From NCBI RefSeq assembly GCF_036492425.1, contig NZ_AP025296.1, positions 124,001-188,000 of the forward strand: DNA of 64,000 nucleotides, given 5' to 3'. Positions 40,363 to 64,000 of the stretch are shown here, one piece after another. This DNA is from Persicobacter psychrovividus. GTDB lineage: Bacteria; Bacteroidota; Bacteroidia; Cytophagales; Cyclobacteriaceae. The position numbers and the translations under genes are program-made. The first letter of the stretch is position 1. Each line of letters starts with the position of its first letter. Below the pieces are notes generated by a model. The model had not been told where the DNA came from. It did not search any database and saw only the letters and a list, made by a program, of their open reading frames with translations.

Positions 40363-43300
40363 ATGAAGTACTACTACCTTATTTTTTTATGGATTTTTGG
40401 TGCTTATCAAGCCAAAGCAGATCGCACCAAATTTGAAACGATCTCCCGTGAAGATGGCCTTTCGCACTCTACCGTTAATGCCATTGTACAGGACCATTCC
40501 GGCTATATGTGGTTTGGCACTCAGGATGGTCTCGTGCGCTATGACGGGTATCAGTTTAAAATTTTTCGACCCGTAAAAGGGGATCGTCAATCTTTGCATG
40601 ATTCCTGGATTAATTCAATATATGTAGATTCAAAAAATCGTTTGTGGGTTCGCTTCGATGGCGGGGGGGTAAGTGTGTATGACCCGGACGTCTCTTTCTT
40701 TAAAAATTTAGTAGCAAGTCCCGATACCCCAGGCGGTCTTTCCAATGATATGGGGCCGACCAATCGTGTGGTAGAAAATGAATATGCTACTTGTGAAACA
40801 GGCGATGGCAGTGTTTGGCTGGCCACCCGCTATGGTTTAAATCGGGTAGATGCAGATTTTCAGGCTACTCAGTATATGAAAGGGGAGGCCAGCACGGGAG
40901 GCCTGACCTCCAATTACATCAGTACCTTGTTTTATGATCAATCACTGAACCACTTGCATATTGGAACAGATCAGGGATTGAATATTATAGATTTGAACAC
41001 TAATAAAATTTATCAGTATCGTGATGAGTTTTTAGGAGCCCATATTCGCATTATCAAAAAAGATCAGTTCAATACTTATTGGATTGGCTCCAAAGAAAGC
41101 GGTTTATTCAGGTTTCAGTTATCGTCAAAAATGGAGGTGATTGAGAATAAACGTATTTTGGCCCGCGACCATTTGGCATTGACGGATCGGGATTTGAACG
41201 TTTATGATATTTTGATTGCCCATAACAGTGATGTTTGGCTGGCGATGGACGATGGCCTTTACCAGTTAGATTATCGGGGTAATTTGATAAAAAACCATAT
41301 GAAAGGTTATAGTGTGCCCACGGCCACGAAAGTTTTACAGGATGGGCAGGGAGATATCTGGGCTTCGAGTACTTCCCTTCAAACGGGCTTAATTCATATT
41401 GATTCGGAGTCGGGAAAATTTACCGAGTATAATCAAAAAGACTCCAAGCACCATGGCTATACGACCAACTATATTCAGTCGATGTTTTTCGATTCCTCGG
41501 GGATTTTATGGATTGGAACGACCAAGGGCGGGGTCATAAAAAACAATGTGCACCTGCCGCCTTTTGAGGCATTCAATGAAAATTATTTTGAATACAAAGG
41601 CAAAACGGATTCGGAGGTGTACAGTATTTATAAGCATGACGATAAAATTTTAGTAGGTACCAAACACCGCCTCTATCAGTTTAAGGAGGATTTTAAGATT
41701 GATAAGGTGATAGACCTCAAGCAGGAAGGAAGCCGCTTTGCGTCCAATATTGTGGGGGTGCTGACTCCTGACGAGGATAAAATTTGGGTCGGCTATTTTA
41801 GAGGGAAAATCAGCACCCTCGACCTTAAATCGAGAAAATTCACGCACTATGATCATCACGACCCGAATGACCCTGAGTGTTTTCCCGCCTGGTCACTAAG
41901 GGACATTTGCGTAGCGAAAGATGGAACGGTATATTTTGCACCGATCAGTGGTGGACTGATTTATCAGAAAAAAGGAAGCAAAATTTTCCAAAATCTGGAG
42001 GATGAATTTAGCGATATAGATTTACATTTTGGGGGTGTCCTAACAGTTGTTGAGGACCATTTAGGACAGATCCTTGTGGGGACTACCAACGACGGTTTAT
42101 TTATTTATCGGCCAAATAATCATTCAATAAAACAGGTTACCAAAGAAAACAGCGGTATTTCGCATAATGAAATCCGATCTATTCACCAGGATTTTATGGG
42201 AACCACCTGGCTGGGTACTCGCTTTGGAATTACCGAATTGAATACCAATTACGAGGTGGTCAATACCTATTTTTATAAAGATGGCCTACCTTCCAATATT
42301 GTCCATGGGATACTCGAAGATCAGTTCGGTAATTTATGGATGAGCACAAATAATGGGATCAGCAGGTTTGATATCAAGGGGAAAAAATTCAGTAATTTTA
42401 CCGAAAGCGATGGGCTAACCGCCAATGAGTTTAATGAATGTGCCTTTTATAAAGATGAGGATGGAATGATGTATTTTGGCGGCTTCAAGGGGGTTACCCG
42501 TTTCGATCCCAAGGCCATTCAGGTGGATATCACCGAGCCCGAAGTACATTTCACTGATCTCGTGGTTGGGCAACAGCATTTGCTCCCAAAGCAAAAGGTC
42601 GGCAGCCATCAAATTATTGAGCGATGTATTGATAAAACAGCGGAGTTACAATTGCCCAATCAGCAAAATAATTTTAAGCTTTATTTGAGTACCCTGAGTT
42701 ATAATTTTCCTTCAAAAATTCAGTATCGTTACAGATTGAAGGGGTATGAAGAAAAGTGGAATTTATTGCGAAATGGGATCAATCATATTGATTATTCCTC
42801 TTTGGCTCCGGGGAGCTATTTGCTCGAGGCTCAGGCCTCCAATTCAGATGGGGTTTGGTCGCCTAAAGTGCGTCGACTCCCGATAGCCATTTTGCCGCCG
42901 TGGTATGAGACTTTTTGGTTCCGTAGCCTCAGTATTGGCATATTATTTTTAGTGGTATTCGGAGGAATATTAATCTATATCCGAAACCTAAAGCAGCGCA
43001 AGCAATTTCTGACCGCGACTGTGGCAAGCAAAACAAAAGACCTTAAAGAAGTTAATGAAGAATTGCAGGCCCAGCAAAGTATGGTGATGGAACAAAATCG
43101 GGTGCTGCAGGAGCAATCCAATGAACTTGAGCTACAAAAGAAAAATGTGGAACTTCTGGGGCAAATGGGGCGTGCCATAACGGCTGATGTCGAGTTTTCA
43201 CATATTTTCAAAAATATCTTTGCTGCGATCAGTAAACTGATGCCCGTTGATGAACTCATGCTGGGGGAACGTAACAAAAAAACAGGTAGATTGGACCTCT

Positions 43301-45237
43301 GGGGGATAAAAACCCAAGAGCAGGATTTTTCAAGAGACGAAATTGATCCGGAGGAAAATGCGCGACTTTCCGCCTGGGTTTTGGCGCATGAAAAAAACTT
43401 GCTGAGTAATGATTTGCAGGCAACAGCGACCGAGCTGCTCAAAAATCCATCGGGAAAATATAAATTGGACGATGGCCCTAAATCAGGCATATATGTACCT
43501 ATAAAGGGGGTGAAAGGGAAAATTCGAGGGGTATTGGTGGCCATAAGCAACAAAAATGGTGCTTATACAAATACCCATCTACAAATGATGGAAAACATCG
43601 CCTCTTATGTTTCTATTGCACTGAGCAATGCGCGCGCTTATGAAAAAATACGAATTCAGTCTGAACAATTGCTACAGGTAGATCAGGTAAAATCGGACTT
43701 TTTTACCAATGTTTCCCATGAATTCAGGACGCCAATTTCTTTGATTGTCGGGCCACTGGAAGAGGTGAAAAAATCCAAGAACCTGACCATGATGGAAATG
43801 CAGCATTTGGGAATCATTGAACGAAACGCACAAATGTTGTTGTCTTTGGTAGAGCAAATTATGGAGCTCTCAAGAATTGATGGTGGCGTGATGAAACTTA
43901 ACTTGCAACAGCTGAATCCTGGGGAACATTTTGAAAATATCCGTCATTCTTTCAGTCACCTGGCCCTCCAAAAAAATATTCAGCTGATCGGAAGAAACCA
44001 CGTACAGGGTTTATCCTGCGAATGCGATGTCAATGTGTTGAATAAAATTATTTATAATTTACTCAATAATGCGATCAAATATACACCACAGGGTGGAGAG
44101 GTTATTTTTGAGGCTAAAGTATGGGATCAGGGAATAGAATTTAAAATTTCCGATAGTGGTTTTGGTATTGAAGATCAAGAGCTTGAGCGTGTTTTTGATC
44201 GGTTCTATCGTATGTCGGGGCATGGGAACACACCAGGATTCGGTATTGGCCTGGCATTGGTGAAAGAACTGGTAGATTTATTGGACGGCAACATAAATGT
44301 GGAGAGTAAACTTATTCAGGATCATCCCGATGAGCACGGAACTACCTTTACCGTTTATATTCCATTGAAACTTGAAAAGGCTCCTCAAAAGGAATCTAAA
44401 AAAGTACAGCTACCACCTTATGAGGCGAAATTAAAGCCTTCAAAATCAGAACGTGCAGACCTGATGCTTAAAACTAAAATACTTGTTGTGGAAGACAACC
44501 CTGATTTACGCCATTTTTTGGTGTCACAGCTGCAGGAGGAATATCATACGCTATATGCTGAAAATGGACTTGAGGCCTTGTCGATCATTCAAAAGGAACA
44601 TCCGCAACTGGTACTTTCAGATATCATGATGCCCAAAATGGGAGGAATTGAACTTTGTAAAAAACTTAGAGAGGACATCAATACGTCCCACATTCCGATT
44701 ATTCTGATTACGGCTAAAGATGCAGACGAAGATAAAATTACCGGCCTTAAAGCGGGTGCTTCAGATTATTTGGTCAAGCCATTTAAAATTGATGAGCTCT
44801 TCCTGAAAGTGGGGAACATCCTTTCCAAACGGGTAAAATTGATTGAACAGTTCAAAAGCGATGTTTGGGTGGGTATTCAGGAAGTTGGTGATGGGTTAAG
44901 CCCTCAGGATCAGGAGTTTTTAGCAAATGTGAAGGCGATTATTGAAGAAGAGATAGAAAATCCAGATTTGGATATTGATCATTTTTGTCATCAGCTTGGA
45001 GTAAGCCGAACCTGGCTTTACAATAAAATGAAATCCTTGCTCGACATGTCAATGAATGAATTTATCCGGAGCTGCCGGATGAAACAAGGGGCAAAACTGC
45101 TCATATTTGAGCAAATGACGGTCTCCCAGGCGGCTTTTGCCGTAGGTTTCAACGACCCTAAATATTTCACAAGGTGCTTTAAGAAGGAGTTTGGCATGAG
45201 CCCGAAGGCATATATTCAGCAATCGGCGAATGCATAG
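40363..45237 (+). CDS. Hybrid two-component system regulator (HTCS) with an extra cytoplasmic GAF domain
   Basis: 1624 residues from an ATG. A signal peptide is followed by a periplasmic sensor made of Reg_prop propeller repeats (ISREDGLSHSTVNAIVQD, GYMWFGTQDGLVRYDG, LWIGTTKGGV and others, ~25-725) and a Y_Y_Y domain (~745-845). One transmembrane helix is at ~853-874 (SIGILFLVVFGGILIYI). Inside the cell come a coiled coil (~880-930), a GAF-like domain (~930-1085), HisKA (FFTNVSHEFRTPISL, His1119), HATPase (NNAIKYTPQGG, GFGIGLALVKE), a receiver (LVVEDNPD, Asp1420 in LSDIMMP, Lys in VKPF) and a C-terminal AraC-type helix-turn-helix (VSQAAFAVGFNDPKYFTRCF). HTCS proteins bind a glycan breakdown product in the periplasm and switch on the matching utilisation locus. 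Here that is most likely the 9-40 kb block. The GAF domain is not part of the standard layout. Confidence 0.93.
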   Translation: MKYYYLIFLWIFGAYQAKADRTKFETISREDGLSHSTVNAIVQDHSGYMWFGTQDGLVRYDGYQFKIFRPVKGDRQSLHDSWINSIYVDSKNRLWVRFDGGGVSVYDPDVSFFKNLVASPDTPGGLSNDMGPTNRVVENEYATCETGDGSVWLATRYGLNRVDADFQATQYMKGEASTGGLTSNYISTLFYDQSLNHLHIGTDQGLNIIDLNTNKIYQYRDEFLGAHIRIIKKDQFNTYWIGSKESGLFRFQLSSKMEVIENKRILARDHLALTDRDLNVYDILIAHNSDVWLAMDDGLYQLDYRGNLIKNHMKGYSVPTATKVLQDGQGDIWASSTSLQTGLIHIDSESGKFTEYNQKDSKHHGYTTNYIQSMFFDSSGILWIGTTKGGVIKNNVHLPPFEAFNENYFEYKGKTDSEVYSIYKHDDKILVGTKHRLYQFKEDFKIDKVIDLKQEGSRFASNIVGVLTPDEDKIWVGYFRGKISTLDLKSRKFTHYDHHDPNDPECFPAWSLRDICVAKDGTVYFAPISGGLIYQKKGSKIFQNLEDEFSDIDLHFGGVLTVVEDHLGQILVGTTNDGLFIYRPNNHSIKQVTKENSGISHNEIRSIHQDFMGTTWLGTRFGITELNTNYEVVNTYFYKDGLPSNIVHGILEDQFGNLWMSTNNGISRFDIKGKKFSNFTESDGLTANEFNECAFYKDEDGMMYFGGFKGVTRFDPKAIQVDITEPEVHFTDLVVGQQHLLPKQKVGSHQIIERCIDKTAELQLPNQQNNFKLYLSTLSYNFPSKIQYRYRLKGYEEKWNLLRNGINHIDYSSLAPGSYLLEAQASNSDGVWSPKVRRLPIAILPPWYETFWFRSLSIGILFLVVFGGILIYIRNLKQRKQFLTATVASKTKDLKEVNEELQAQQSMVMEQNRVLQEQSNELELQKKNVELLGQMGRAITADVEFSHIFKNIFAAISKLMPVDELMLGERNKKTGRLDLWGIKTQEQDFSRDEIDPEENARLSAWVLAHEKNLLSNDLQATATELLKNPSGKYKLDDGPKSGIYVPIKGVKGKIRGVLVAISNKNGAYTNTHLQMMENIASYVSIALSNARAYEKIRIQSEQLLQVDQVKSDFFTNVSHEFRTPISLIVGPLEEVKKSKNLTMMEMQHLGIIERNAQMLLSLVEQIMELSRIDGGVMKLNLQQLNPGEHFENIRHSFSHLALQKNIQLIGRNHVQGLSCECDVNVLNKIIYNLLNNAIKYTPQGGEVIFEAKVWDQGIEFKISDSGFGIEDQELERVFDRFYRMSGHGNTPGFGIGLALVKELVDLLDGNINVESKLIQDHPDEHGTTFTVYIPLKLEKAPQKESKKVQLPPYEAKLKPSKSERADLMLKTKILVVEDNPDLRHFLVSQLQEEYHTLYAENGLEALSIIQKEHPQLVLSDIMMPKMGGIELCKKLREDINTSHIPIILITAKDADEDKITGLKAGASDYLVKPFKIDELFLKVGNILSKRVKLIEQFKSDVWVGIQEVGDGLSPQDQEFLANVKAIIEEEIENPDLDIDHFCHQLGVSRTWLYNKMKSLLDMSMNEFIRSCRMKQGAKLLIFEQMTVSQAAFAVGFNDPKYFTRCFKKEFGMSPKAYIQQSANA

Positions 45238-52491: not shown

Positions 52492-53121
52492 ATGCCACAG
52501 AACTTCCCCTTTATCGGTATTCACTATAATCTTTTAGACCACCTTGCCGAAGGTTATCAGATTATTGATTTTGATTATAAATTCTTGTTTGTGAATAAAT
52601 CAGCTTTAATTCAAAGCCAATTTGAAAGTAAAGAGCAGCTTTTGGGCTATTCATTGTTTGAAAAATACCCAGGTATTGAAAATCTGCCATTATTTGAAAA
52701 GATAGAACAGGCTATGGCTAATCGAACATTTGAACAGATTACCACGGAATTTAAATTTAATAACGGGACAACTTCCTGGTTTGAGCTGTTCATCAGTCCA
52801 GTACCTTCGGGGGTGGCGATCATGTCAGTAAATCTGGAAGACCAGAAACGGCTTGATTTGGAGCAACTAAAAGATCTGGAGAGCCTCGATGAAATATTAT
52901 TTGTTATTTCCCATAAATTGCGGCAACCTGTTTGTAATATTGATGGATTGCTAACAATCCTTGATGGCGATATTATTGACCGAGAGGATTTTTTGCCGAT
53001 CATCAAATATGTAAAGGTTGAATTAGAGCGACTTAAAGAGTACACCGAAGAGATGACTGAAATTGTCAGTTCAAAAAGGTTTATCAATGCTCAGGAACGT
53101 AGTGCTACAAGCCGCAAATAA
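52492..53121 (+). CDS. PAS-HisKA protein lacking the ATPase domain
   Basis: 209 residues from an ATG, with no signal peptide, so cytoplasmic. Residues ~10-125 form a PAS domain (LAEGYQIIDFDYKFLFVNKSA ... WFELFISPVPSGVAIMSV). It is followed by a HisKA-type helical hairpin with an H-box-like motif (FVISHKLRQPVCNIDGLL, His about residue 141) and a second helix (VKVELERLKEYTEEMTEIV). The protein stops right after the dimerisation/phosphoacceptor domain, with no N, G1 or G2 box, and no further frame downstream restores one. It could be phosphorylated in trans, act as a dimerisation decoy, or be a degraded kinase. It converges on a complete membrane histidine kinase encoded on the other strand, which is a natural candidate partner. 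Confidence 0.75.
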   Translation: MPQNFPFIGIHYNLLDHLAEGYQIIDFDYKFLFVNKSALIQSQFESKEQLLGYSLFEKYPGIENLPLFEKIEQAMANRTFEQITTEFKFNNGTTSWFELFISPVPSGVAIMSVNLEDQKRLDLEQLKDLESLDEILFVISHKLRQPVCNIDGLLTILDGDIIDREDFLPIIKYVKVELERLKEYTEEMTEIVSSKRFINAQERSATSRK

Positions 53122-53328: not shown

Positions 53329-54966
53329 TTATTCCTTTTCAATGGAAGCATCAATATATTGGCTCTCGTAAGGGATGTAAATAATGAAAGAGGCGCCCTG
53401 ATTAAGGGTACTTTGAACTTCAATGGTGCCCTGGTGAAGCTCGACGAATTTTTTCACAAACGACAGCCCAATTCCTGTCCCTTTAATATTCTCCGATTGT
53501 TTGGAGCGGTAAAAAGGTTCAAAAAGTTTATTGATCTCCTCCTGCGCAATTCCCATACCATGGTCTTTTACCTTAATAAGGAATTCCTGATCTAAAAATG
53601 AGAGGCTAAGCTCAATCTTCGCCTCGGAATATTTTATGGCATTGCTGATCAAGTTCATCAGAATGTGTTCGATAAAATACGGATCCACCTTTACGGGGCG
53701 CGCTTCCCCTTTTATCTTTATCTGAAATTCCCGATCCGGATTCAGCGCCTGATACCTCTCAATTTGTTTTTCAATCAGCTCAACTAAAGAGGTCGGTTTG
53801 AAAAAAGGATATAATTCATCGGCTTCCATCTTTCCATAATCCAGCAAGCGTTCCATCATGCCCGTGATCGACTCTATGGATTCATAAATTTGCCCAAATT
53901 TTTTCTCCAGAATTGGCCCTTGCTCACTTTCTTTCAGCACTGAAATATATTGCTCAATAATTTGGTTGGCACTGTGAATGGTCGTCAGCGGTGTTCTGAA
54001 TTGATGCGACACCATGGAGATAAACTCACTTTTGGATTTATTTAATTCCAGCTCCTTATTCAGTGCCGTGGTAAGCTGTTTTTCATGTGCCTTCTGATGG
54101 GTGATGTCCTGAACAATAATCTGATAAAATTCCCCGTCAAGGGTATTGTAATTTTTATGCTGATTAATGCGAAGATAGACCTGTTGCTGATTAATAAAAA
54201 TACGCTTCTCAAAAGAGTGATTTTCTTTGTTGCGGGCAGGAAGTTCATACAGAATTGCCTCTTGCTCTTCCTTGGGCAGCATATTGAGGATCGTCTTGAT
54301 GGAATCACTCTTATAGTTAATCTTGAATCGCTCGTTGTATTTGACCAGGAAAAAATCCTTTTCTATCGCCTTGATCAGCTGTTGCTGACTCTTATTAATG
54401 GCACTAATCTTTTCTTTCTGTTCATGTTCTTGCTTTTTAAATAGCAGCATACAAACCGAGGCCATCAGATTGACAGAAATAAATGGCACTGAGCGTACCG
54501 CAAGGTCGAGGGGCAATGTGGCAGAAATTTCCGGATTGATAAAATTGTACACAATGGCCAGAAACACGATAATATTGGAAATGATGAAATATTTGGTGTA
54601 GTGCTTCCGGTCGAGGATATTATAATTGAAGATATGGCAGAGGATTAACAATACGGGGGCTGCACCGGTAATTCCGCCCAGCGCCAAATAATCCGCCAGT
54701 ACAATGGTAAACTCATTAATGAAAAATACCATCAGGGCTTGTTCATATTTTTTATACCGAAGGTCAAGCAGTAAAGTGAGTGCGCAGAGGAAGATCATAT
54801 TGGGGAGCGCGATCTTATACACGATAGGTAATTTTTGGCCGATCAGAATAATGCCACTCAAACCACTGCATATCATCCCTGTGGCTGCAAGGTGTAAAAT
54901 TCGATGTTTGAGTTCAACGTCAGCGCCTAAGCCCAGTATTTTTTTGATTTTTATCCACAATTTCAT
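53329..54966 (-). CDS. Membrane sensor histidine kinase
   Basis: 545 residues from an ATG. The N-terminal ~175 residues hold about six hydrophobic segments (for example GMICSGLSGIILIG, FFINEFTIVLADYLALGG, IISNIIVFLAIVYNFI). A PAS-like domain (~200-300: EKDFFLVKYNERFKINY ... FYQIIVQDITHQK) precedes the HisKA domain with H-box FISMVSHQFRTPLTTI. The HATPase carries the N box (LMNLISNAIKYSEAK), G1 (KDHGMGIAQEE), F box (FEPFYRSKQ) and G2 (GTGIGLSFVKKFVELHQG). All catalytic boxes are intact. No response regulator gene is adjacent, so it is an orphan kinase. Signal unknown. Its 3' end faces the PAS-HisKA gene. Confidence 0.92.
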   Translation of the reverse strand: MKLWIKIKKILGLGADVELKHRILHLAATGMICSGLSGIILIGQKLPIVYKIALPNMIFLCALTLLLDLRYKKYEQALMVFFINEFTIVLADYLALGGITGAAPVLLILCHIFNYNILDRKHYTKYFIISNIIVFLAIVYNFINPEISATLPLDLAVRSVPFISVNLMASVCMLLFKKQEHEQKEKISAINKSQQQLIKAIEKDFFLVKYNERFKINYKSDSIKTILNMLPKEEQEAILYELPARNKENHSFEKRIFINQQQVYLRINQHKNYNTLDGEFYQIIVQDITHQKAHEKQLTTALNKELELNKSKSEFISMVSHQFRTPLTTIHSANQIIEQYISVLKESEQGPILEKKFGQIYESIESITGMMERLLDYGKMEADELYPFFKPTSLVELIEKQIERYQALNPDREFQIKIKGEARPVKVDPYFIEHILMNLISNAIKYSEAKIELSLSFLDQEFLIKVKDHGMGIAQEEINKLFEPFYRSKQSENIKGTGIGLSFVKKFVELHQGTIEVQSTLNQGASFIIYIPYESQYIDASIEKE

Positions 54967-55297: not shown

Positions 55298-55329
55298 TTT
55301 GTGCGATAATTGAATAAAATGTAGGTTTG
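55298..55329 (+). promoter_or_regulatory. Near-consensus Bacteroidota promoter of the second SusCD operon
   Basis: TTTG (55298-55301), a 20-base spacer and TAGGTTTG (55322-55329) match the -33 TTTG / -7 TAnnTTTG consensus for the primary sigma factor of Bacteroidota. The leader to the SusC ATG is about 110 bases. Confidence 0.65.
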
Positions 55330-55444
55330 AATCATCAAAACTACAATTATCACTTCTGTCAACAGAATTCTTTTTGTTTGCATTTTTCCTTCCACCAACC
55401 CATTTGGGTATAGCATATTTTTCAAACATAAATCATAGTTATTG

Positions 55445-58400
55445 ATGAAGAATTTTAAACGGTTATTTTTATTGTTCACCATGACGTGCTGTTTTACGAA
55501 TGCCTTTGCGCAAAGCACGATCACAGGGGTGATTCTTGATGCCGAAGATGGCAGCGAATTACCAGGCGTGAATGTGGTGATCAAAGGGACTGACGCAGGT
55601 ACGGTATCTGATTTTACCGGAAGTTTTCAGCTGAATGCTGAAGCAGGACAAACACTGATTTTTTCCTTTATAGGGTATAAGCCCAAAGAGGTTTTGGTCG
55701 GTAATCAAAGTCATATTGAGGTGAAACTTGGCGCTGACCTTGTGCAGCTCGACGATGTTGTTGTTACGGCCTTCGGACTGAAGAAAGAGAAAAAAGCACT
55801 GGCCTATGCGGTTTCTGAGGTGAAGGGATCCGACCTGACCAACCAGCGAAGCGGTTCCGCAGCCACAGCCCTTTCTGGTCGAGTGGCCGGGCTTGAAGTT
55901 TCGGGTAACGCTCCCGGGCAGGCTACAAGGGTAACGATTCGGGGTAACACCTCGATTTCCGGAAACAACCAACCATTGTATGTGATTGATGGTGTACCGA
56001 TGGACAACTCTATTCAGGGAGGCGCTGACCGATGGGGTGGTGTTGATATGGGGGATGGAATCTCCGGTTTGAACCAGGATGATATCGAGTCGATGAACGT
56101 ATTGAAAGGACCAGCCGCTACGGCGCTTTATGGTTCTCGTGGCCAAAACGGTGTGATTTTGATCACCACAAAAGGTGGATCATCACAAAAAGGAATTGGG
56201 GTAGAGTTCAACGCCAACAATACGGTGAACCAGGCTTATGGCAGCTACGATTCCCGCCAGTCGCTTTACGGACAGGGTACGCGTGGTGTAGCACCGGGCA
56301 ATGCCGCCGATGCCCGCTCAACGGGATTATCCTCTTGGGGTCCAAAAATGAACGGACAGCAGGCAACGCATTACGATGGCTCCACTTACAGCATGACGGA
56401 TGCTTACGATCCGATGGATTTTTATCAAATGGGTTATACCCTCAGCAATAGTGTGGCTTTATCCGCAGGAAACGAAACGATTCAAACGCGTTTGTCCATT
56501 TCCGATGAAAGAATTCAGGGAGTTAATCCTTCAGAAATGATCAAGCGGAACTCGATTAATTTGCGGACTTCGGCCAACCTGACCGATAAATTTAGAGTGG
56601 ACAGTAAGCTGACTTATATGAATCAGCAGGGACAAAACAGGATGAAGGGATCGCAGGATGGTGGTAATGCCAGAAAAACCCTCGGTAGAATTCCCGCTTC
56701 GATGCCGCTTGATTTGTTGCGTCAAAATGCTTCCAACGGATTTTTTAACAACGATATCTATTCAGCAAACCCTTTCTGGATTACAGAAAATCTTGAAAAC
56801 AGTGATTCCCGAAATCGCCTTTTGGGTTATGTAAGTTTGAGCTATGACCTTACAGACTGGTTGACGGTTACGGCAAGAAGTGGTGGTGATGGTTTTGTTT
56901 TGCAGCGCCGTGATTTAATGCCAATTGGTACGCCATGGGCTGCCATTGGGGAACTTGAAGAGGAAACCTCACAGGTGGCAGAGTTGAACCACGACTTGAT
57001 GTTTGTTTATAATTACGATATCAATCCTGACTGGAATATTTCCGGAACTTTCGGTGGAAACCTTCGCCAGAACAGCTCAAGGGTAGATGGTATCAAAGCG
57101 GTGCAGTTCAACTCACCAGATTTTTACCACTGGACCAACGCGCAATCAGTAGAAACGCGTCAGCAGATGTACTATAAAGAGACGCAATCGTTATTTGCCT
57201 CTACAGATATTGGTTATAAAAACATGTTGTTCATGACCATCACCGGAAGAAATGACTGGTCGTCTACTTTGCCAGCACACAACAACTCTTATTTCTATCC
57301 TTCGCTAAGTAGTAGTTTTGTATTTTCCGAAGCTTTTGATATGCCAAGCTGGGTAAGTTTTGGTAAGGTGAGAGGTTCTTGGGCAAAGGTAGGTAATGAT
57401 ACCGACCCATATCAGTTGCAATTGCAATATAACATGATGGGGCAGGGCTTCCCAAGCTTCGGAAGACCACCTCTTGGCGGTATTGAAGGTGCCGATATGC
57501 CGAATGCCAACCTGAAATCAGAGTCTACTTACTCTTATGAATTTGGGGTTGACATGAAATTCCTTGACAACAGACTGGGCTTTGATGTGGCTTACTATAA
57601 TCAGCTGACGGTCGATCAGTTAATGCCGGTTCAGATCTCCAATACAACGGGTTATGAGCGCATGTGGACCAACGCCGGTTCGGTAAGAAACCACGGTATT
57701 GAGCTGAGTGTTTATGCGACACCAATTCAAACTTCAGACTTCTCATGGGATATTGGCATGAACTTCAATAAGAACGTCAATGTAGTGGAAGAACTTTCTG
57801 AAGGCATTGACCAGTTGATTATCGGTGATTTTGGTAACCTTCAGGTGCAGGCCCGTCCGGGTGAAAAATATGGTGCCATTGTTGGCTATGATTATGCCAG
57901 AGATGACAACGGCGCCATCATGCACAATGAAGATGGATTGCCGATGCAGGCGACTTCAAGCAGCGTACTGGGGCACGTAATTCCTGACTGGACTGCCGGT
58001 TTGAGCAATAACTTCAAGTACAAAAACTGGAATTTCGGATTCTTGATTGATATGAAATATGGTGGCTCGTTGTACTCTTCAACCAATGCCATGATGTACT
58101 CAGCAGGTACCCACAGCAACACGCTGGAAGGTCGTGAGGAGTATTACAATGCTGGCGATCAGCTGAGAGAAACGATGGTAGATCCAGAGGATTATTACAA
58201 GCAGATTGGATCCAATATTCACTCGGAGTTTGTATATGACGCTTCCTATGTACGTATGCGAGAGCTGTCTTTCGGTTACACCTTCGATAATGAAATGTTG
58301 GGCAAAACACCTTTCGAATCGGTACGATTGTCCTTCGTGATGGGGAACCCATTCTTCATCTGGCGTGCGGCGCCGAATATCGACCCAACACAGTTACTCA

Positions 58401-58486
58401 ATGCCGACAACAGCGGCCTGGGTTACGAAATGGGAGGTGCGCCATCTATTCGCTCCTACGGTTTCAACCTGAATTTCCGTCTGTAA
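55445..58486 (+). CDS. SusC/RagA family TonB-linked outer-membrane transporter (pair 2)
   Basis: 1013 residues from the ATG at 55445; the in-frame TTG just before is not used. Signal peptide MKNFKRLFLLFTMTCCFTNAFAQ, then a carboxypeptidase-regulatory-like domain (ITGVILDAEDGSELPGVNVV). The plug has VVTAFGLKKEKKALAYAVSE, ALSGRVAGLEVSGNAPG, VTIRGNTSISGNNQPLYVID and NVLKGPAATALYGSRGQNG. The TonB-dependent barrel fills the rest and ends with FNLNFRL. The 'AFGLKKEKKALAYAV' variant is typical of SusC proteins paired with the SusD-like_2 type of lipoprotein, which is what follows 25 bp downstream. Substrate unknown; the neighbours (GH3, SusB-type GH97) suggest a glucan. Confidence 0.95.
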   Translation: MKNFKRLFLLFTMTCCFTNAFAQSTITGVILDAEDGSELPGVNVVIKGTDAGTVSDFTGSFQLNAEAGQTLIFSFIGYKPKEVLVGNQSHIEVKLGADLVQLDDVVVTAFGLKKEKKALAYAVSEVKGSDLTNQRSGSAATALSGRVAGLEVSGNAPGQATRVTIRGNTSISGNNQPLYVIDGVPMDNSIQGGADRWGGVDMGDGISGLNQDDIESMNVLKGPAATALYGSRGQNGVILITTKGGSSQKGIGVEFNANNTVNQAYGSYDSRQSLYGQGTRGVAPGNAADARSTGLSSWGPKMNGQQATHYDGSTYSMTDAYDPMDFYQMGYTLSNSVALSAGNETIQTRLSISDERIQGVNPSEMIKRNSINLRTSANLTDKFRVDSKLTYMNQQGQNRMKGSQDGGNARKTLGRIPASMPLDLLRQNASNGFFNNDIYSANPFWITENLENSDSRNRLLGYVSLSYDLTDWLTVTARSGGDGFVLQRRDLMPIGTPWAAIGELEEETSQVAELNHDLMFVYNYDINPDWNISGTFGGNLRQNSSRVDGIKAVQFNSPDFYHWTNAQSVETRQQMYYKETQSLFASTDIGYKNMLFMTITGRNDWSSTLPAHNNSYFYPSLSSSFVFSEAFDMPSWVSFGKVRGSWAKVGNDTDPYQLQLQYNMMGQGFPSFGRPPLGGIEGADMPNANLKSESTYSYEFGVDMKFLDNRLGFDVAYYNQLTVDQLMPVQISNTTGYERMWTNAGSVRNHGIELSVYATPIQTSDFSWDIGMNFNKNVNVVEELSEGIDQLIIGDFGNLQVQARPGEKYGAIVGYDYARDDNGAIMHNEDGLPMQATSSSVLGHVIPDWTAGLSNNFKYKNWNFGFLIDMKYGGSLYSSTNAMMYSAGTHSNTLEGREEYYNAGDQLRETMVDPEDYYKQIGSNIHSEFVYDASYVRMRELSFGYTFDNEMLGKTPFESVRLSFVMGNPFFIWRAAPNIDPTQLLNADNSGLGYEMGGAPSIRSYGFNLNFRL

Positions 58487-58511: not shown

Positions 58512-60212
58512 ATGAAATTTATCAATAAAACAATGGCTATTTTATTAGCCGCAGGAATGGGACTGGCCTCATGTACTTCCCACTTTGAAGATTTAAATAC
58601 GGACCCCAACCGCCCAACAAAGGTGGATCCGGCTCAGCAGTTTGGCTGGACCATCGCCAAAACTGCCGGTGACCGTTACGAAAACTGGCGGGGGAATTTG
58701 ATTTATTCCTCCTGCATGATCCAGCATTTTGCGGGCACCACCATGGGCTGGTCTGGTGATTACTATACGCTGAACATGGCTTATAATAATGCCCAGTGGG
58801 AGCGAAATTATGGGCATCCGGTGAAAAATATTGAGCAGCTGGATTTCAATCTCCAAAAATTGGCCGAAGAAGAAGGCCGTGAGATTGAGGAAGAAATGGC
58901 TTTGGTGAATATTTGGAAAGTGTTTGTTTACCATAGGCTTACCGACCTTTATGGTCCGGTGCCATTTTCTGAGGCGGGTCGTGGCTATACTGAGGGAATC
59001 ATTAACCCGAGATACGATTCAGAACAGACCATCTATCTTGGGGATGGCGAAGTGATGGGGATGCTGGAAATGCTCGACGAAGCAGCGATCACCCTTGAAG
59101 CAGCGGGCGGAAGTAACGTCTTTGGCAATGCCGATATCATGTTTCAGGGAGATGCGCAGAAGTGGGCAAAGTTTGCCAACAGCATGATTTTACGCCTTGG
59201 AATGCGAATTTCCGGTGTGGCTGAATCAGAGGCTAAGGCATTCATGCAGAAGGCTATTGAGCGCGGAGTGATGGAAAGTAATATGGATATTGCCTATATC
59301 GAGCATGAGTTTGGCAATGACCCTTACGGCCTGGGGAACAATGGGGTATCGCAGGTGTTTTTGGAAAACAGTGGTGCTTCAGGGCATGATTTCCGTTTCT
59401 CTGAAAGCTTCATGAATGTGCTCAAGCATTTCAATACGGCACAAATTGACCCTCGACTTGAATACATGACCGGGGTTTACAATGCTGGTTTTGATAACGG
59501 GCAGTATTTTGAAACCTACTATCCTTTTGATGGTTCCGCACCAACAAGTTACGATGGTTTGCCGAATGGTCTGGAGCCTGTACAGGCTCAGGCATTGGCG
59601 GAAGAAAAAGGCTTTGATGAGCTCTTCACTTCGGGCATTGGTCACCTCGGTTTCCCACAGCCCAACCGTACTTATATGACCACCCGTGAGGCGCCAACCA
59701 TTTTTATGTCTTATGCTGAAACGGAATTTTTGCTGGCTGAAATTGCCGTAAGGTTCCCCGAGTTGGCGCAGGATGCCAATGGGCATTATCAGAATGGTAT
59801 TGTAGCGGCCATGGAGATGCTTGATTTGTACAGTACCAGCGGTGCGTTGGTTCCTCGTGATGAGATTCAGAATTATGTCAACAGTTTGCCAGTACTGGGC
59901 GGAAATAATCGCAGTCCTTTAGAATTGGAGAGCGACCTGGATGAGATTCATACACAAAAATGGCTGGCGTTGCTGTTCAACGGATATGAGGCTTATGCCG
60001 AATGGAGAAGAACACAGTTGCCAAGTTTTGTAACGAACAATCAGGTGAGTCACCCACAGGGAATTACCAACGGTCGAATTCCTGGCCGATTGAAATATCC
60101 AGATATTGAGCAGGGAACAAATGGTGCCTCGTGGGCCAAGGCCGTGGATATGCTTTCCAATGGTGAAGATACTTTCCTCAATGACCTTTGGTGGGCGAAA
60201 AAGAACTTCTAA
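58512..60212 (+). CDS. SusD/RagB-like outer-membrane lipoprotein (SusD-like_2 type, pair 2)
   Basis: 566 residues. The lipoprotein signal has the lipobox LASC (MAILLAAGMGLASC). The mature opening TSHFEDLNTDPNRPT, the VDPAQQFGWTIAKTAGDRYE stretch, the RLTDLYGPVPFSEAG motif, and the C-terminal QKWLALLFNGYEAYAEWRRT with GRLKYPDIEQ place it in the second SusD branch. It serves as substrate-capturing lid of the SusC barrel 25 bp upstream. A terminator follows 20 bases after its stop, so the two genes make a closed operon. The membrane-bound regulator gene follows under its own control. Confidence 0.93.
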   Translation: MKFINKTMAILLAAGMGLASCTSHFEDLNTDPNRPTKVDPAQQFGWTIAKTAGDRYENWRGNLIYSSCMIQHFAGTTMGWSGDYYTLNMAYNNAQWERNYGHPVKNIEQLDFNLQKLAEEEGREIEEEMALVNIWKVFVYHRLTDLYGPVPFSEAGRGYTEGIINPRYDSEQTIYLGDGEVMGMLEMLDEAAITLEAAGGSNVFGNADIMFQGDAQKWAKFANSMILRLGMRISGVAESEAKAFMQKAIERGVMESNMDIAYIEHEFGNDPYGLGNNGVSQVFLENSGASGHDFRFSESFMNVLKHFNTAQIDPRLEYMTGVYNAGFDNGQYFETYYPFDGSAPTSYDGLPNGLEPVQAQALAEEKGFDELFTSGIGHLGFPQPNRTYMTTREAPTIFMSYAETEFLLAEIAVRFPELAQDANGHYQNGIVAAMEMLDLYSTSGALVPRDEIQNYVNSLPVLGGNNRSPLELESDLDEIHTQKWLALLFNGYEAYAEWRRTQLPSFVTNNQVSHPQGITNGRIPGRLKYPDIEQGTNGASWAKAVDMLSNGEDTFLNDLWWAKKNF

Positions 60213-60424: not shown

Positions 60425-62986
60425 ATGAGCAGTCGATTTGTACCCTTAGTTATTGCTGTAATTTTTCTTTCCTTCCGGGCTTTCGGGCAAGGAAATGTAG
60501 GCGGACTTGATTTTATGAGTTCAGAAAAAGCGCTGGAAAATACCGCGACGCTGACATTGCCGCAGGAAGGGTTCCTTCCTTTCAAAGAGGATTTTCAGCT
60601 TAATTTTGAGATTGATATTCACGATTGTACGACTTTTGGTAACATCCTCAGGATTGTCAGTGAAAATGGCCATACCCTCGATATTTTTTATCGACCAGGC
60701 GGGGCATCAAGTCAGCCTTACCTGAAACTGGTCACCGACAAATCCGCCGGGAACATCATCATACCCATCCCTTCACAGTACTTGCTTGAAAACCAATGGA
60801 CAGATTTTTCAATTGTAATCAGTAAAGATTCAGGATTATTGACGGCGCATTGTTTTGGGGAAGAATTTGAACAGGATTTGGGGGCTGTTGATGCCGATGA
60901 AATTAAAATGTTCTTTGGTATGTGCAATTACAAAGGCTATGCAACAAAAGATATTCCTTCTTTTTCGGTACGAAACATCGGTTACAAATCAAATACATTG
61001 GAATACCTGTGGCCCCTGCAACAAGCCGAAGGGGAAATCGCTTATGAGGAAAATCATCATCGACATGGACAGGCTCTTAACCCCAACTGGTCGGCGCAAA
61101 ATCACCACCACTGGCGGCCGGTTATTAGTACGGAAACCAATTTTCACCCTGCCCTAATTTATCAGCAAAAACAAAATTTACTCAACATAGTCGGCGGATC
61201 GAATTATCAGGTGCTTGACCTCGACGGCAAAGCGATCATTAAACAAACGGACAATCCCAAAAATAATGCGCCGGTATTTTTGGCGGGGCTGAAATCCAAT
61301 ATTGGTGAGGCGCAGTATATGGTCGATATTCGGGGCTCTAAACTGTCCAAGCCGAGTCCGTGGTTCAGTGCCAAACAAATGAATGCCAAAGAGAAGATTG
61401 ACTTTTGGCATACCACCCTGATGGAGGATACAGACCGACAGGAGCTGATTAGTTTTGGTGGCTATGGCTGGTATCAGTATAACAACAGCTTCCGAAGGTT
61501 TAATGCTTCTGGCGTTGATACGGTCCAGTTTTCAGGTGATAAGATCAGTCCAAGATATTTTGCTTCCGCAGGATTTTTGAAGAATAATGAGTACCTGATT
61601 TATGGCGGTATGGGGAACCATTCCGGAGATCAGGCGATGGGCACCAATGTATTTCACGATTTATATAAAGTGAACCTGCAAACGCAGTCGGTAGAAAAAC
61701 TGTGGGATCTTCCTGAGTTAAAAGCGGACCTGTTGAATTCCGGTAATTTGGTGATTGCCGCCGACAGTGCCTCGTTCTATACACTGGTTTTTGAGGCCAA
61801 TGCCTATGAGGTCAATATTCAGCTGGCCAATATTGACATCGCCACCGGAGCAGTGAAGATCGTCAGTGATGCCATAAAAACGAAATTCAAAGATACTGAA
61901 AGTGATATTGAGCTGTTTTACCAGCCGCAGAGTCATAAATTTTATGCCGTGATTGTCCATAGCGATTACAATGATAATACGGCGGAGATTGAAGTTTATC
62001 AGTTGCATGGCGATCCGATAGGTCTTGCGGACTTGAAAAAGCTGAGTCCGGGTGGATTTTTGGCCACATCAAAAACGGTACCCACCAAACCACTGACCCT
62101 TCTTGGAGCCGTCATTTTTCTGGTAACGGGCGTATCCTTTGGGGTTTATCGTAAAAAATCACAAACCAGTGAGCAGCCGGTAAAGAAAGTCAGTTCACCT
62201 TTTTTGGTGAAGATGCCAGAGGAATATGAGGCATTTAAAATGCCGGCCATTGATCGGCCCCAAAAAAATGCCATCTATCTTTTCGGAGGGATGAAGGTGT
62301 TCAGCCGCGAAGGAGAGGAGATCAGTGCGCAGATGACCGAAAAGTTAAGACAGTTGTTCTTGACCATCCTATTCTTTCCCTATGCCCATGGGCGATATAT
62401 TAATTCACAGGAACTCGCCGAGGTCATGTGGCCCATGGCACCAAAAAACAAGTCGAAGAACAATCGCTCTATCAGCATTCGCCGTTTGCGGTTGATTCTT
62501 GAAGCCTGCGACGGCATAGAAGTGATTTACAAAAGCAATGAATGGAAGATCAGTTTTACCGATGGCGCCTATTGTGATTTTGAAGTGTTTACCACATTGA
62601 AATCTCAGCTGAAACAGTGTGAATCACCGAAAGATAAAATTGAATTATTCCAGCAATTGTATCAGGTGGTGAGTCAGGGCGAAGTGGTCGGGTCCATTCG
62701 TAGTGAGTGGCTCGAAGATCATATGGCACATATTCGTTCGCATATTATTGAGCAGTTGATTTCCTTTGCAGAAGAGTGCAATAACCCCGTGTGGGTTTGT
62801 GAAATCAGTGATATGATTTTTAAATTCGACAACCTTGAAGAGCAGGCCCTGGACCTGAAAGTTCGGGCATTGATGCACCTGAATAAACTGGTGCAGGCTC
62901 GTAATGAATTCGATCGGTTTTCAAAAAATTATGCGAAACTATTTGGGGAGGCTTACAATAAATCATTCAACAGCATCGAGGTATAA
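60425..62986 (+). CDS. Transmembrane SARP-like transcriptional regulator with periplasmic LamG/kelch-like sensor
   Basis: 853 residues from an ATG. A signal peptide is present (VPLVIAVIFLSFRAFGQ). Residues ~40-190 look like a concanavalin/LamG jelly-roll (DFQLNFEIDIHDCTTFGN ... MFFGMCNYKGYATKDIPSF). Residues ~235-545 are kelch- or propeller-like (ISFGGYGWYQYNNSFRRF, YLIYGGMGNHSGDQAMGTN). One transmembrane helix is at ~556-578 (LTLLGAVIFLVTGVSFGVY) with a basic KK stop-transfer. The cytoplasmic part opens at ~613 with an OmpR/SARP-type winged helix (IYLFGGMKVFSREGEEIS, INSQELAEVMWP, NRSISIRRLRLILEACDGI), followed by a BTAD-like helical repeat region (~705-850). It appears to sense an extracytoplasmic ligand and bind DNA in a single chain, without kinase or receiver. 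Position after SusCD suggests it controls that operon. Domain calls are from motif reading. Confidence 0.8.
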   Translation: MSSRFVPLVIAVIFLSFRAFGQGNVGGLDFMSSEKALENTATLTLPQEGFLPFKEDFQLNFEIDIHDCTTFGNILRIVSENGHTLDIFYRPGGASSQPYLKLVTDKSAGNIIIPIPSQYLLENQWTDFSIVISKDSGLLTAHCFGEEFEQDLGAVDADEIKMFFGMCNYKGYATKDIPSFSVRNIGYKSNTLEYLWPLQQAEGEIAYEENHHRHGQALNPNWSAQNHHHWRPVISTETNFHPALIYQQKQNLLNIVGGSNYQVLDLDGKAIIKQTDNPKNNAPVFLAGLKSNIGEAQYMVDIRGSKLSKPSPWFSAKQMNAKEKIDFWHTTLMEDTDRQELISFGGYGWYQYNNSFRRFNASGVDTVQFSGDKISPRYFASAGFLKNNEYLIYGGMGNHSGDQAMGTNVFHDLYKVNLQTQSVEKLWDLPELKADLLNSGNLVIAADSASFYTLVFEANAYEVNIQLANIDIATGAVKIVSDAIKTKFKDTESDIELFYQPQSHKFYAVIVHSDYNDNTAEIEVYQLHGDPIGLADLKKLSPGGFLATSKTVPTKPLTLLGAVIFLVTGVSFGVYRKKSQTSEQPVKKVSSPFLVKMPEEYEAFKMPAIDRPQKNAIYLFGGMKVFSREGEEISAQMTEKLRQLFLTILFFPYAHGRYINSQELAEVMWPMAPKNKSKNNRSISIRRLRLILEACDGIEVIYKSNEWKISFTDGAYCDFEVFTTLKSQLKQCESPKDKIELFQQLYQVVSQGEVVGSIRSEWLEDHMAHIRSHIIEQLISFAEECNNPVWVCEISDMIFKFDNLEEQALDLKVRALMHLNKLVQARNEFDRFSKNYAKLFGEAYNKSFNSIEV

Positions 62987-63056
62987 CGAGGTTCAAAGCT
63001 CGAATTGAAGGCGCTCAAAAATGATTGATCAGCCACTGACCCAATAGTGTAATCTG

Positions 63057-63077
63057 CCGCGAGACTCTGTCTCGTGG
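63057..63077. repeat. REP-like palindrome 1
   Basis: CGCGAGAC (63058-63065), TCT, GTCTCGTG (63069-63076). It is preceded by the block ATCAGCCACTGACCCAATAG, itself able to form a CACT/AGTG stem. Confidence 0.8.
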
Positions 63078-63180
63078 CAATTTGCGTAATATTTTAACTG
63101 GCCAAAATTCACATCTAAACCTTTAGGGACACCATAGGTGAAGAGGCTTTATCAGCCACTGACCCAAAAGTGTCACCTGT

Positions 63181-63199
63181 CGCGAGACTCCGTCTCGTG
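63181..63199. repeat. REP-like palindrome 2
   Basis: CGCGAGAC, TCC loop, GTCTCGTG, again preceded by the ATCAGCCACTGACCC block and followed by GCAATTTGC. Confidence 0.8.
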
Positions 63200-63334
63200 G
63201 CAATTTGCTTTTGAAATTCAGCGCTTGCGAGGGAAGGAGGTAGCCCAGTTATGGTTTTGCATCCATTTGAAGTTCATCACTTTTTCGATATTCGAGATAT
63301 AATCGGTTCAAATCCTTTCAGCAGTTGAGCGCCA

Positions 63335-63502
63335 TCAAGGATTTAATGATCGGTTTTGCAGACCCTTTTGTCCCTTAATTGTTTTCCGCAGTTTCTTCAG
63401 AAAATATACCCTTCGTTTAGGGCTGAAATCAGGTCCTAAAATTTCCTTTTGATATTCCTCGAACACCAATGTAAGACCCTTCGACTGACTTTCTTGTACC
63501 AT
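63335..63502 (-). pseudogene. Truncated duplicate of the minus-strand gene end
   Basis: A 55-codon frame (MVQESQSKGLTLVFEEYQKE ... LQNRSLNP) is identical in plan to the end of the gene at 63791-64000. Its upstream part is replaced by palindrome 3, so it is a fragment. Confidence 0.45.
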
Positions 63503-63511
63503 TTTTTCACC

Positions 63512-63536
63512 TGTCGCGAGACTCCGTCTCGTGACA
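63512..63536. repeat. REP-like palindrome 3
   Basis: TGTCGCGAGAC, TCC loop, GTCTCGTGACA: the longest of the four stems (11 pairs with one G-T). It lies exactly at the junction of the two tandem copies and lacks the preceding CACTGACCC block. Confidence 0.8.
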
Positions 63537-63637
63537 ACTTGCGTAATATTTTAACTGGCCAAAATTCACATCTAAACCTTTAGGAACACCATAGGTGAAG
63601 AGGTTTTATCAGCCACTGACCCAATAGTGTCACCTGT

Positions 63638-63656
63638 CGCGAGACTCCGTCTCGTG
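63638..63656. repeat. REP-like palindrome 4
   Basis: CGCGAGAC, TCC loop, GTCTCGTG; same context as palindrome 2, 457 bp away. Confidence 0.8.
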
Positions 63657-63790
63657 GCAATTTGCTTTTGAAATCCAGTGCTTGCGAGGGAAGGAGGTAG
63701 CCCAGTTATGGTTTTGCATCCATTTGAAGTTCATCACTTTTTCGATATTCGAGTTATAATCGGCTAAACTCCTTTCAGCGGAGAGCGCCA

Positions 63791-64000
63791 TCAAGGATTT
63801 AATGATCGGTTTTGCAGACCCTTTTGTCCCTTAATTGTTTTCCGCAGTTTCTTCAGAAAATATACCCTTCGTTTAGGACTGAAATCAAGTCCTAAAATTT
63901 CCTTTTGATATTCCTCGAACACCAATGTAAGACCCTTCGACTGACTTTCTTGTACCATTTTTTCAAGATTATTTGCTGCTGAAATAAATTTTATCCATCG
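63791..64000 (-). CDS. Unidentified protein, C-terminal 69 residues (start outside window)
   Basis: A minus-strand frame is open from the window edge to a TGA at 63791-63793. The visible part begins RWIKFISAANNLEKMVQESQ and ends KLRKTIKGQKGLQNRSLNP. It is basic toward the C-terminus (SPKRRVYFLKKLRKTIKG). I do not recognise the family. Its close association with REP-like palindromes and with a duplication of its own 3' end would suit a mobile-element gene, but no transposase motif can be seen in this part. Confidence 0.4.
   Translation of the reverse strand, partial: RWIKFISAANNLEKMVQESQSKGLTLVFEEYQKEILGLDFSPKRRVYFLKKLRKTIKGQKGLQNRSLNP

Follow-up and report, generated by a model that had tools for sequence, protein, structure and literature searches.

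The 64,000-nucleotide stretch of Persicobacter psychrovividus contig NZ_AP025296.1 analysed here (positions 124,001 to 188,000; "the window") encodes, directly behind a SusC-SusD gene pair, an 853-residue protein with an exported sensor, one predicted membrane helix and a SARP-type DNA-binding module on a single chain. The initial annotation had proposed a transmembrane regulator of SARP type that carries an extracytoplasmic sensor on the same chain, and profile chains together with a family-wide topology support that proposal. The gene is, as claimed, a single open frame (60425-62986, + strand). By its predicted domains the regulator is a member of a family scattered over Bacteroidota, whose ectodomains fall into a kelch-type and a Laminin_G_3-type class, and the kelch-type members are enriched beside SusC-SusD pairs. 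We consider it probable that the protein is a one-component, membrane-tethered activator that senses a periplasmic glycan and directly switches on the linked uptake locus. The features of the regulator are as follows.

60425-62986, + strand: transmembrane SARP-type regulator gene, 853 aa (open reading frame list and family searches)
60425-60490, + strand: signal peptide, residues 1-22 (hydrophobic segment 3-21; cleavage site inferred)
60503-61114, + strand: N-terminal ectodomain part, residues 27-230, LamG-like character unproven (conserved across 35 aligned members)
61430-61873, + strand: kelch-type beta-propeller segment, residues 336-483 by Pfam (Pfam, relatives and PDB profile matches)
62093-62149, + strand: transmembrane helix, residues 557-575, then RKK (hydropathy)
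62264-62584, + strand: winged-helix DNA-binding domain, residues about 614-720 (AfsR/SaeR profile matches, hhalign, strand-helix order of a low-confidence AlphaFold2 model)
62459-62500, + strand: presumed recognition helix, residues 679-692, in which an N and an R are almost invariant (two family alignments)
62585-62977, + strand: BTAD-like helical-repeat domain, residues about 721-851 (profile comparisons)

By hydropathy alone, without a dedicated topology predictor, the protein contains two hydrophobic segments. The first (residues 3-21) agrees with the signal peptide proposed earlier and has counterparts above threshold in 17/20 family members (the exceptions being L027, L033 and L045; L and G numbers denote loci and genomes throughout). 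The second scores best at residues 557-575 (Kyte-Doolittle 2.06; an earlier scan placed it at 552-570 with 1.64) and is followed by RKK, in keeping with the single membrane-spanning helix of the initial annotation. It exceeds the same threshold in 19/20 members (exception L037), and the net charge C-terminal of it is positive in 19/19 (+1 to +6). Given an exported N-terminus and the positive-inside rule, the last ~280 residues are predicted to be cytoplasmic. A poorly conserved linker of ~38 residues joins the membrane helix to the winged helix.

The kelch/propeller-like region described by the initial annotation is weak in the regulator alone, where Pfam gives 8.8e-6 and 25.6 bits against a cut-off of 50, and is borne out by the relatives. 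Kelch matches at E up to 0.1 were found in 12/13 family members scanned (best 3.6e-16), and a 37-row ectodomain profile finds solved kelch propellers in the PDB, including SAKe6BC (4.1e-17) and kelch domain-containing protein 10 (2.8e-15). The whole propeller probably spans about residues 245-545. Residues 27-230 form a conserved unit across 35 aligned members, and the LamG-like jelly-roll suggested for this N-terminal part is unproven: a profile of the unit matches real LamG domains of the sister class with 12% probability, and its weak PDB matches place neurexin (E 0.064) behind the CD8 alpha chain (E 0.03). True Laminin_G_3 domains occur in the sister class (7/7 scanned, plus L130).

The whole regulator protein gave no BTAD or Trans_reg_C match in Pfam up to E 1 and no NCBIfam match for the winged helix and BTAD. 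Its C-terminal fragment matches Trans_reg_C at E 0.15 (12.6 bits, below the cut-off of 26.2), and at E up to 0.1 the family C-termini match BTAD in 10/53 and Trans_reg_C in 8/53 cases. A 20-row C-terminal profile (A2) finds in the PDB a designed TPR protein (0.013), then AfsR (0.043) and SaeR (0.14); a 53-row profile finds the TPR protein (3.1e-4), AfsR (0.058), SaeR (0.27) and EmbR (0.43). Because unrelated chains (CtkA, DNA polymerase IV) are interspersed among the matches of the 53-row profile, these direct PDB matches are only suggestive. The SARP assignment is established transitively: the family C-termini match BTAD relatives, which match AfsR and EmbR. The A2 profile found ten distant Bacteroidota proteins (E 2e-19 to 8e-7), and all eight of these that were scanned carry BTAD above the Pfam cut-off of 22.1 (47.5-94.3 bits). 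An hhalign comparison of the 53-row C-terminal profile with a 10-row profile of these relatives gave 99.8% probability (E 3.5e-30, 235 columns), as against 0.4% for a control with an unrelated family domain. The 10-row profile in turn matches AfsR (2.5e-19) and EmbR (3.2e-14) over both domains in the PDB; many TPR proteins also match its BTAD part. We conclude that, as judged through relatives, the C-terminus is a SARP-type winged helix followed by BTAD, and the cytoplasmic OmpR/SARP output of the initial annotation is upheld by that route, with no Pfam match in the protein itself. The winged-helix-aligned part has well conserved columns (consensus AKNNR-V-I-KLR--L), and the role presumed for residues 679-692 as recognition helix is taken by analogy from OmpR/SARP folds. 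A Pfam scan found no kinase, receiver, HisKA, HATPase or AraC domain in the regulator, which fits the earlier claim of signalling without phosphorylation. A BTAD search of the P. psychrovividus genome returned no match at E<=0.001.

The genome of P. psychrovividus holds three copies of the regulator. Searches with the full-length protein (E<=1e-5) detected relatives in 10/59 genomes, and the C-terminal profile found matches in 25/291 genomes of an order sample (E<=1e-6), 30/395 of a phylum sample (E<=1e-5) and 8/395 of a class sample, with the own genome included each time and with the profile-based counts taking in distant BTAD proteins of other architecture. The same locus, ~99% identical, is present in a Persicobacter contig, and the closest named homologue lies on plasmid CP012852.1 of Persicobacter sp. 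JZB09 (40.8% over 97%). A tree of 37 kelch-type rows, made by a quick method and having an unsure root and some long branches, groups the window copy with L028, L140, L141 and L150 (SH-aLRT 100). Shorter or split forms of the family also occur (L113, L114, L128, L036). At L114 (7349-11073, G610) a second gene, of 271 aa, stands behind a full-length regulator and encodes just the cytoplasmic module, without ectodomain; its product is possibly a partner or competitor. L119 (8825-13319) and L120 (8363-12857) each contain two overlapping tandem regulator genes, the first of 853 aa and the second, in which the ectodomain is reduced, of 683 aa. At L036 (9026-11604, G030), near GH92, the regulator is split into two overlapping frames, a frameshifted copy or an assembly error.

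Immediately upstream of the regulator, on the same strand and in the order SusC, SusD, regulator, lie the genes that place it straight after a SusC-SusD pair, as the initial annotation had stated. About 213 bases separate SusD from the regulator, and for SusC the ATG at 55445 is preferred over the TTG at 55442.

55445-58486, + strand: SusC-family TonB-dependent transporter (TIGR04056, 8.4e-202)
58512-60212, + strand: SusD-like lipoprotein (PF12771, 2.7e-70)

This arrangement recurs. A SusC-SusD pair was found at 22/30 same-class kelch-type loci, window included and all within 7 kb, compared with 6/40 random regions (Fisher 8.5e-7); after removal of eight near-duplicate loci the count is 14/22 (1.5e-4). 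The random regions, 19.5 kb each, were drawn by script from regulator-bearing contigs of 21 genomes (G215, with the LamG type only, was included; G030 and G1004 were left out). The pair was seen at 0/11 LamG-type loci and 0/8 kelch-type loci from distant families; the latter figure has little power, since the six of its seven genomes that were searched for SusC hold 2-7 matches each. The survey of Bacteroidota genomes suggested with the initial annotation bears out a recurring architecture and its linkage to SusC-SusD among same-class kelch-type loci, and does not extend that linkage to the LamG type or to the distant kelch-type loci.

On the window's own branch the pairing of regulator and SusD is conserved in some genomes. 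The window SusD was searched in 11 genomes. Its best match in G112, G166 and G245 (43-44%) sits in a SusC-SusD pair beside the closest regulator branch, and its best matches in G030 (39%) and G306 (38%) are less than 6 kb away from kelch regulators of other branches. Nothing better than 2e-34 was found in G011, G198, G125, G153 and G178, of which the last four belong to the same genus as G112 and the last two have unclassified regulators. Across 291 order genomes, the three best foreign matches of the window SusD are all regulator-linked. A Mantel test shows a correlation between the identities of regulators and those of their linked SusD proteins (r 0.43 and p 0.001 over 14 deduplicated loci, r 0.80 over the full 21), one that takes no account of species relatedness.

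Kelch-type loci are also rich in glycoside hydrolase (GH) family 92 genes. GH92 occurs within 10 kb at 14/31 kelch loci (expected 0.68, P 4e-16, using rounded genome sizes) and at 11/26 after deduplication (expected 0.57, P 1e-12); among the random regions it was found in 1/40. A scan of up to two genes per side at 24 loci (91/92 proteins, E<=1e-5) identified GH92 in nine, GH125 in two and GH130 in two of 91 proteins. The JZB09 homologue faces three genes similar (32-54%) to GH92 genes of other loci, relatives of the window SusC-SusD pair in G269 and G250 are clustered with a GH92-type gene (confirmed by Pfam in G269), and L031 brings together this SusC-SusD type, a symporter, GH130, GH92 and a regulator. 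On the strength of the GH92 genes beside kelch relatives, the JZB09 homologue, the G269 and G250 clusters and L031, the ligand of the window regulator is probably alpha-mannosidic; characterised GH92 members are all alpha-mannosidases (PMC9522356). A GH92 gene suspected from gene length beside L139 is absent from the genome GH92 match list.

The LamG-type class keeps different company. A scan of up to three genes per side at 11 loci found 3-keto-disaccharide hydrolase in 7/62 and Gfo/Idh/MocA in 6/62 neighbours, and the hydrolase lies within 5 kb at 5/11 loci (expected 0.26), two of which (L135 and L138) are from one genus. The hydrolase domain is tied to 3-keto-disaccharide breakdown (PMC9007349). 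One member, WP_211744650.1 of Parabacteroides distasonis, is like the window regulator in its C-terminal module (A2 profile, 2.5e-71) and membrane segment (Kyte-Doolittle 2.31), and differs in having, going by its RefSeq name, a LamG-type ectodomain. That name, "LamG-like jellyroll fold domain-containing protein", covers the LamG part only and shows no DNA-binding part. Behind this gene come genes for a Gfo/Idh/MocA oxidoreductase and a sugar phosphate isomerase/epimerase.

In the mechanism we favour, the exported N-terminus would place the kelch-propeller ectodomain in the periplasm, where it would bind a glycan fragment imported by the neighbouring SusC-SusD pair; the likely ligand is an oligosaccharide of alpha-mannosidic type, for example a piece of an N-glycan or of mannan. 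Once bound, the ligand would change how the single-pass chain pairs or is positioned, so that the cytoplasmic winged helix and BTAD would attach to the promoter that serves the linked uptake and hydrolase genes and recruit RNA polymerase, with positive feedback on uptake. In this scheme we infer the ligand class, activation over repression, dimerisation and action while membrane-bound; the presence of the glycan and its binding by the ectodomain are suggested by the linkage, and activation by analogy with SARP biology. A tethered mode is plausible since CadC (PMC5936718) and ChiS and TfoS (PMC11856585) are described as acting from the membrane.

Several observations weigh against this mechanism or parts of it. 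L028 (G011), a close relative of the regulator, has neither a SusC-SusD pair in its stretch nor a good SusD match in its genome. The five SusD matches that rank after the three regulator-linked ones (39-41%; G230, G269, G313, G091 and G250) come from genomes in which the C-terminal profile found no regulator; the transporter type thus also occurs independently of this regulator. No pair was found in the stretch at 8/30 kelch loci (L028, L029, L030, L032, L034, L036, L038 and L145), that of L036 being cut by the edge of the fetched stretch, and the SusC and SusD profiles, built from genes near regulators, may favour those loci. FecR and Sigma70 domains, each in 2/91 kelch neighbours, indicate that other regulators share some loci. 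Among the genome GH92 matches listed, none is on the window's contig, and the mannoside assignment thus rests on relatives. Of the structure prediction and hidden Markov model searches called for in the initial annotation, the searches yielded kelch, no convincing LamG, and BTAD via relatives only, and the AlphaFold2 single-sequence models were poor (pLDDT 51 and pTM 0.43 for the C-terminal 244 aa; 55.7 and 0.41 for the winged helix alone). The low-confidence winged-helix model has the order strand-strand-helix-helix-helix-strand-strand, as in OmpR-type domains, to which we give little weight. Foldseek returned chiefly designed helical repeats and 14-3-3 proteins for the 244-aa model and nothing below E 0.9 for the winged-helix model; VIA-align listed many winged-helix proteins for the latter at Z 3.2-4.7 (OmpR 1opc, Z 3.6; AfsR 8k60, Z 3.5; also PhoP, CssR and ToxR) and unrelated ones too, scores far too low to count. 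Finally, no confident SARP-type direct-repeat operator was found, and the region upstream of the window SusC is without a repeat at spacing 10-12.

SARPs bind direct repeats at 11-bp spacing. Direct repeats at spacing 10-12 scored slightly higher than composition-shuffled sequence (7.52 vs 7.16, sd 0.12; one region counted twice), and period 11 was narrowly the top of 25 periods over 25 regions (6.40; next 6.36). The intergenic region of L140 (7230-7465), between regulator and SusC, contains a tandem direct 12-bp repeat of the CCCATTTGTA type, a candidate operator that is partly kept, in degraded form, in L150 and L141; none was seen upstream in the window. The promoter proposed by the initial annotation upstream of SusC fits what we take to be the Bacteroidota promoter consensus, and the motif is no commoner in the window than by chance (2 found vs 1.96 expected).

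55298-55329, + strand: Bacteroidota-type promoter-like sequence (TTTG, 20 bases, TANNTTTG), upstream of SusC; candidate

Four other explanations were weighed against the tethered glycan-sensing activator. The regulator might sense the glycan indirectly, by way of a partner: SusD, SusC or a glycan-binding protein of the periplasm. Kelch propellers often serve as platforms for protein interaction, and the correlated identities of regulator and SusD are as expected of partners; GH92-linked copies without a SusC-SusD pair in the stretch (L029, L034, L038 and L145) argue otherwise, and we regard partner sensing as possible though doubtful. Its model would be ChiS of Vibrio, activated via a chitin-binding protein (PMC11856585). 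Somewhat less likely is proteolytic release, in which the protein, on binding glycan, is cleaved within the membrane or at a specific site, and its SARP part acts on DNA as a soluble fragment. The single-pass layout and the ~38-residue linker before the winged helix would allow this, and the 271-aa module-only gene beside the full-length gene (L114, G610) suggests that a free module may work, but visual inspection of the linker, which is poorly conserved, showed no conserved cleavage motif, and the few tethered regulators studied bind DNA while anchored (PMC11856585, PMC5936718).

We think it unlikely that the protein is a repressor or controls remote genes, with its SusC-SusD adjacency reflecting a general clustering of carbohydrate genes. 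The own genome, with its three regulator copies, has 17 GH92 matches at other places, several of them on C2 and C6 near the two other copies, and none on the window contig, which favours this reading; the enrichment of SusC-SusD and GH92 over random regions speaks against it, as do three genomes of another family in which the regulator is still paired with the closest SusD. Most improbable is that the C-terminal half is a degenerate, non-DNA-binding winged helix-turn-helix/TPR scaffold in a periplasmic structural factor, to which the RefSeq name of the LamG-type relative, the lack of a Pfam match above threshold, the poor AlphaFold2 models and the designed TPR protein as best PDB match would point, since the winged-helix part is well conserved and aligns with AfsR and SaeR.

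Like SARP regulators of the AfsR, EmbR and DnrI type, the regulator has, as traced through the profile chain, an OmpR-type winged helix followed by BTAD, a module most familiar from regulators of antibiotics in Streptomyces. Known SARPs are soluble, whereas in the window regulator the module forms the C-terminus and comes after an exported sensor and a transmembrane helix. Actinobacteria may have annotated membrane proteins in which LysM and BTAD are joined, and if so a tethered BTAD exists elsewhere. ChiS and TfoS of Vibrio cholerae differ from the regulator in their sensor and output families. They resemble it as one-chain membrane-anchored regulators answering to oligosaccharides (PMC11856585). 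ToxR and CadC share one chain, a single span, winged-helix output and a periplasmic sensor, but their DNA-binding domain is cytoplasmic and N-terminal (PMC5936718), whereas here it is C-terminal with BTAD and the order is reversed. Hybrid two-component systems (HTCS) of polysaccharide utilization loci are similar as one-chain sensors with a beta-propeller part and cytoplasmic output near SusC-SusD and carbohydrate-active enzyme genes; they carry HisKA, HATPase, receiver and AraC domains, none of which was found in the regulator. Unlike systems of extracytoplasmic function (ECF) sigma and anti-sigma factors with a signalling SusC, the window SusC has no STN among its Pfam hits, and its neighbours are not sigma/FecR genes but a PAS/HisKA gene (52492-53121) and a histidine kinase gene (53329-54966). 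Among the titles and abstract starts listed from the open-access literature, none concerned a Bacteroidota SARP bound to the membrane, or a regulator that joins kelch or LamG to SARP. Tethered one-component regulators and SARP output are both known; what appears new is to find them combined with exported glycan-type sensors and linked to sugar loci, and SARP output and the N-out/C-in layout seem new for glycan loci.

We lean slightly towards the broader view that these proteins form an unnamed Bacteroidota class of single-pass receptors in which an exported sensor is wired to a cytoplasmic SARP module with no phosphorelay or sigma factor, with at least two branches that differ in sensor and chemistry, the kelch type serving alpha-mannosidic loci (SusC-SusD and GH92) and the LamG type 3-keto-glycoside loci (3-keto-disaccharide hydrolase and Gfo/Idh/MocA). 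If true, the class would be a further mode of control next to the HTCS, SusR-type and ECF/anti-sigma modes. Regulators determine on which glycan a Bacteroidota cell spends its resources, and they frequently give the best hint at the substrate of a locus; naming by the sensor half only, as in the one annotated example, would hide the control of mannoside and 3-keto-sugar loci, in gut Parabacteroides too. A compact modular sensor of exported binding domain, one helix and DNA-binding module would also suit the study of phosphorylation-free transmembrane signalling.

Elsewhere in the window, an HTCS (40363-45237) lies amid a plant-polysaccharide-type region (GH31, GH9, GH43, GH13, GH116, GH3, GH97). 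The gene at 52492-53121 encodes a 209-aa PAS and HisKA protein with no ATPase domain match, and that at 53329-54966 (-) a histidine kinase (HisKA and HATPase) with no response regulator gene seen beside it. On the 3' side of the regulator, a unit of ~457 bp occurs twice in tandem (63018-63965), the copies being 95-99% identical. Inside this unit is a short GC-rich palindrome-like element with 30 genome-wide matches, dispersed and in tandem clusters, four of them in the window.

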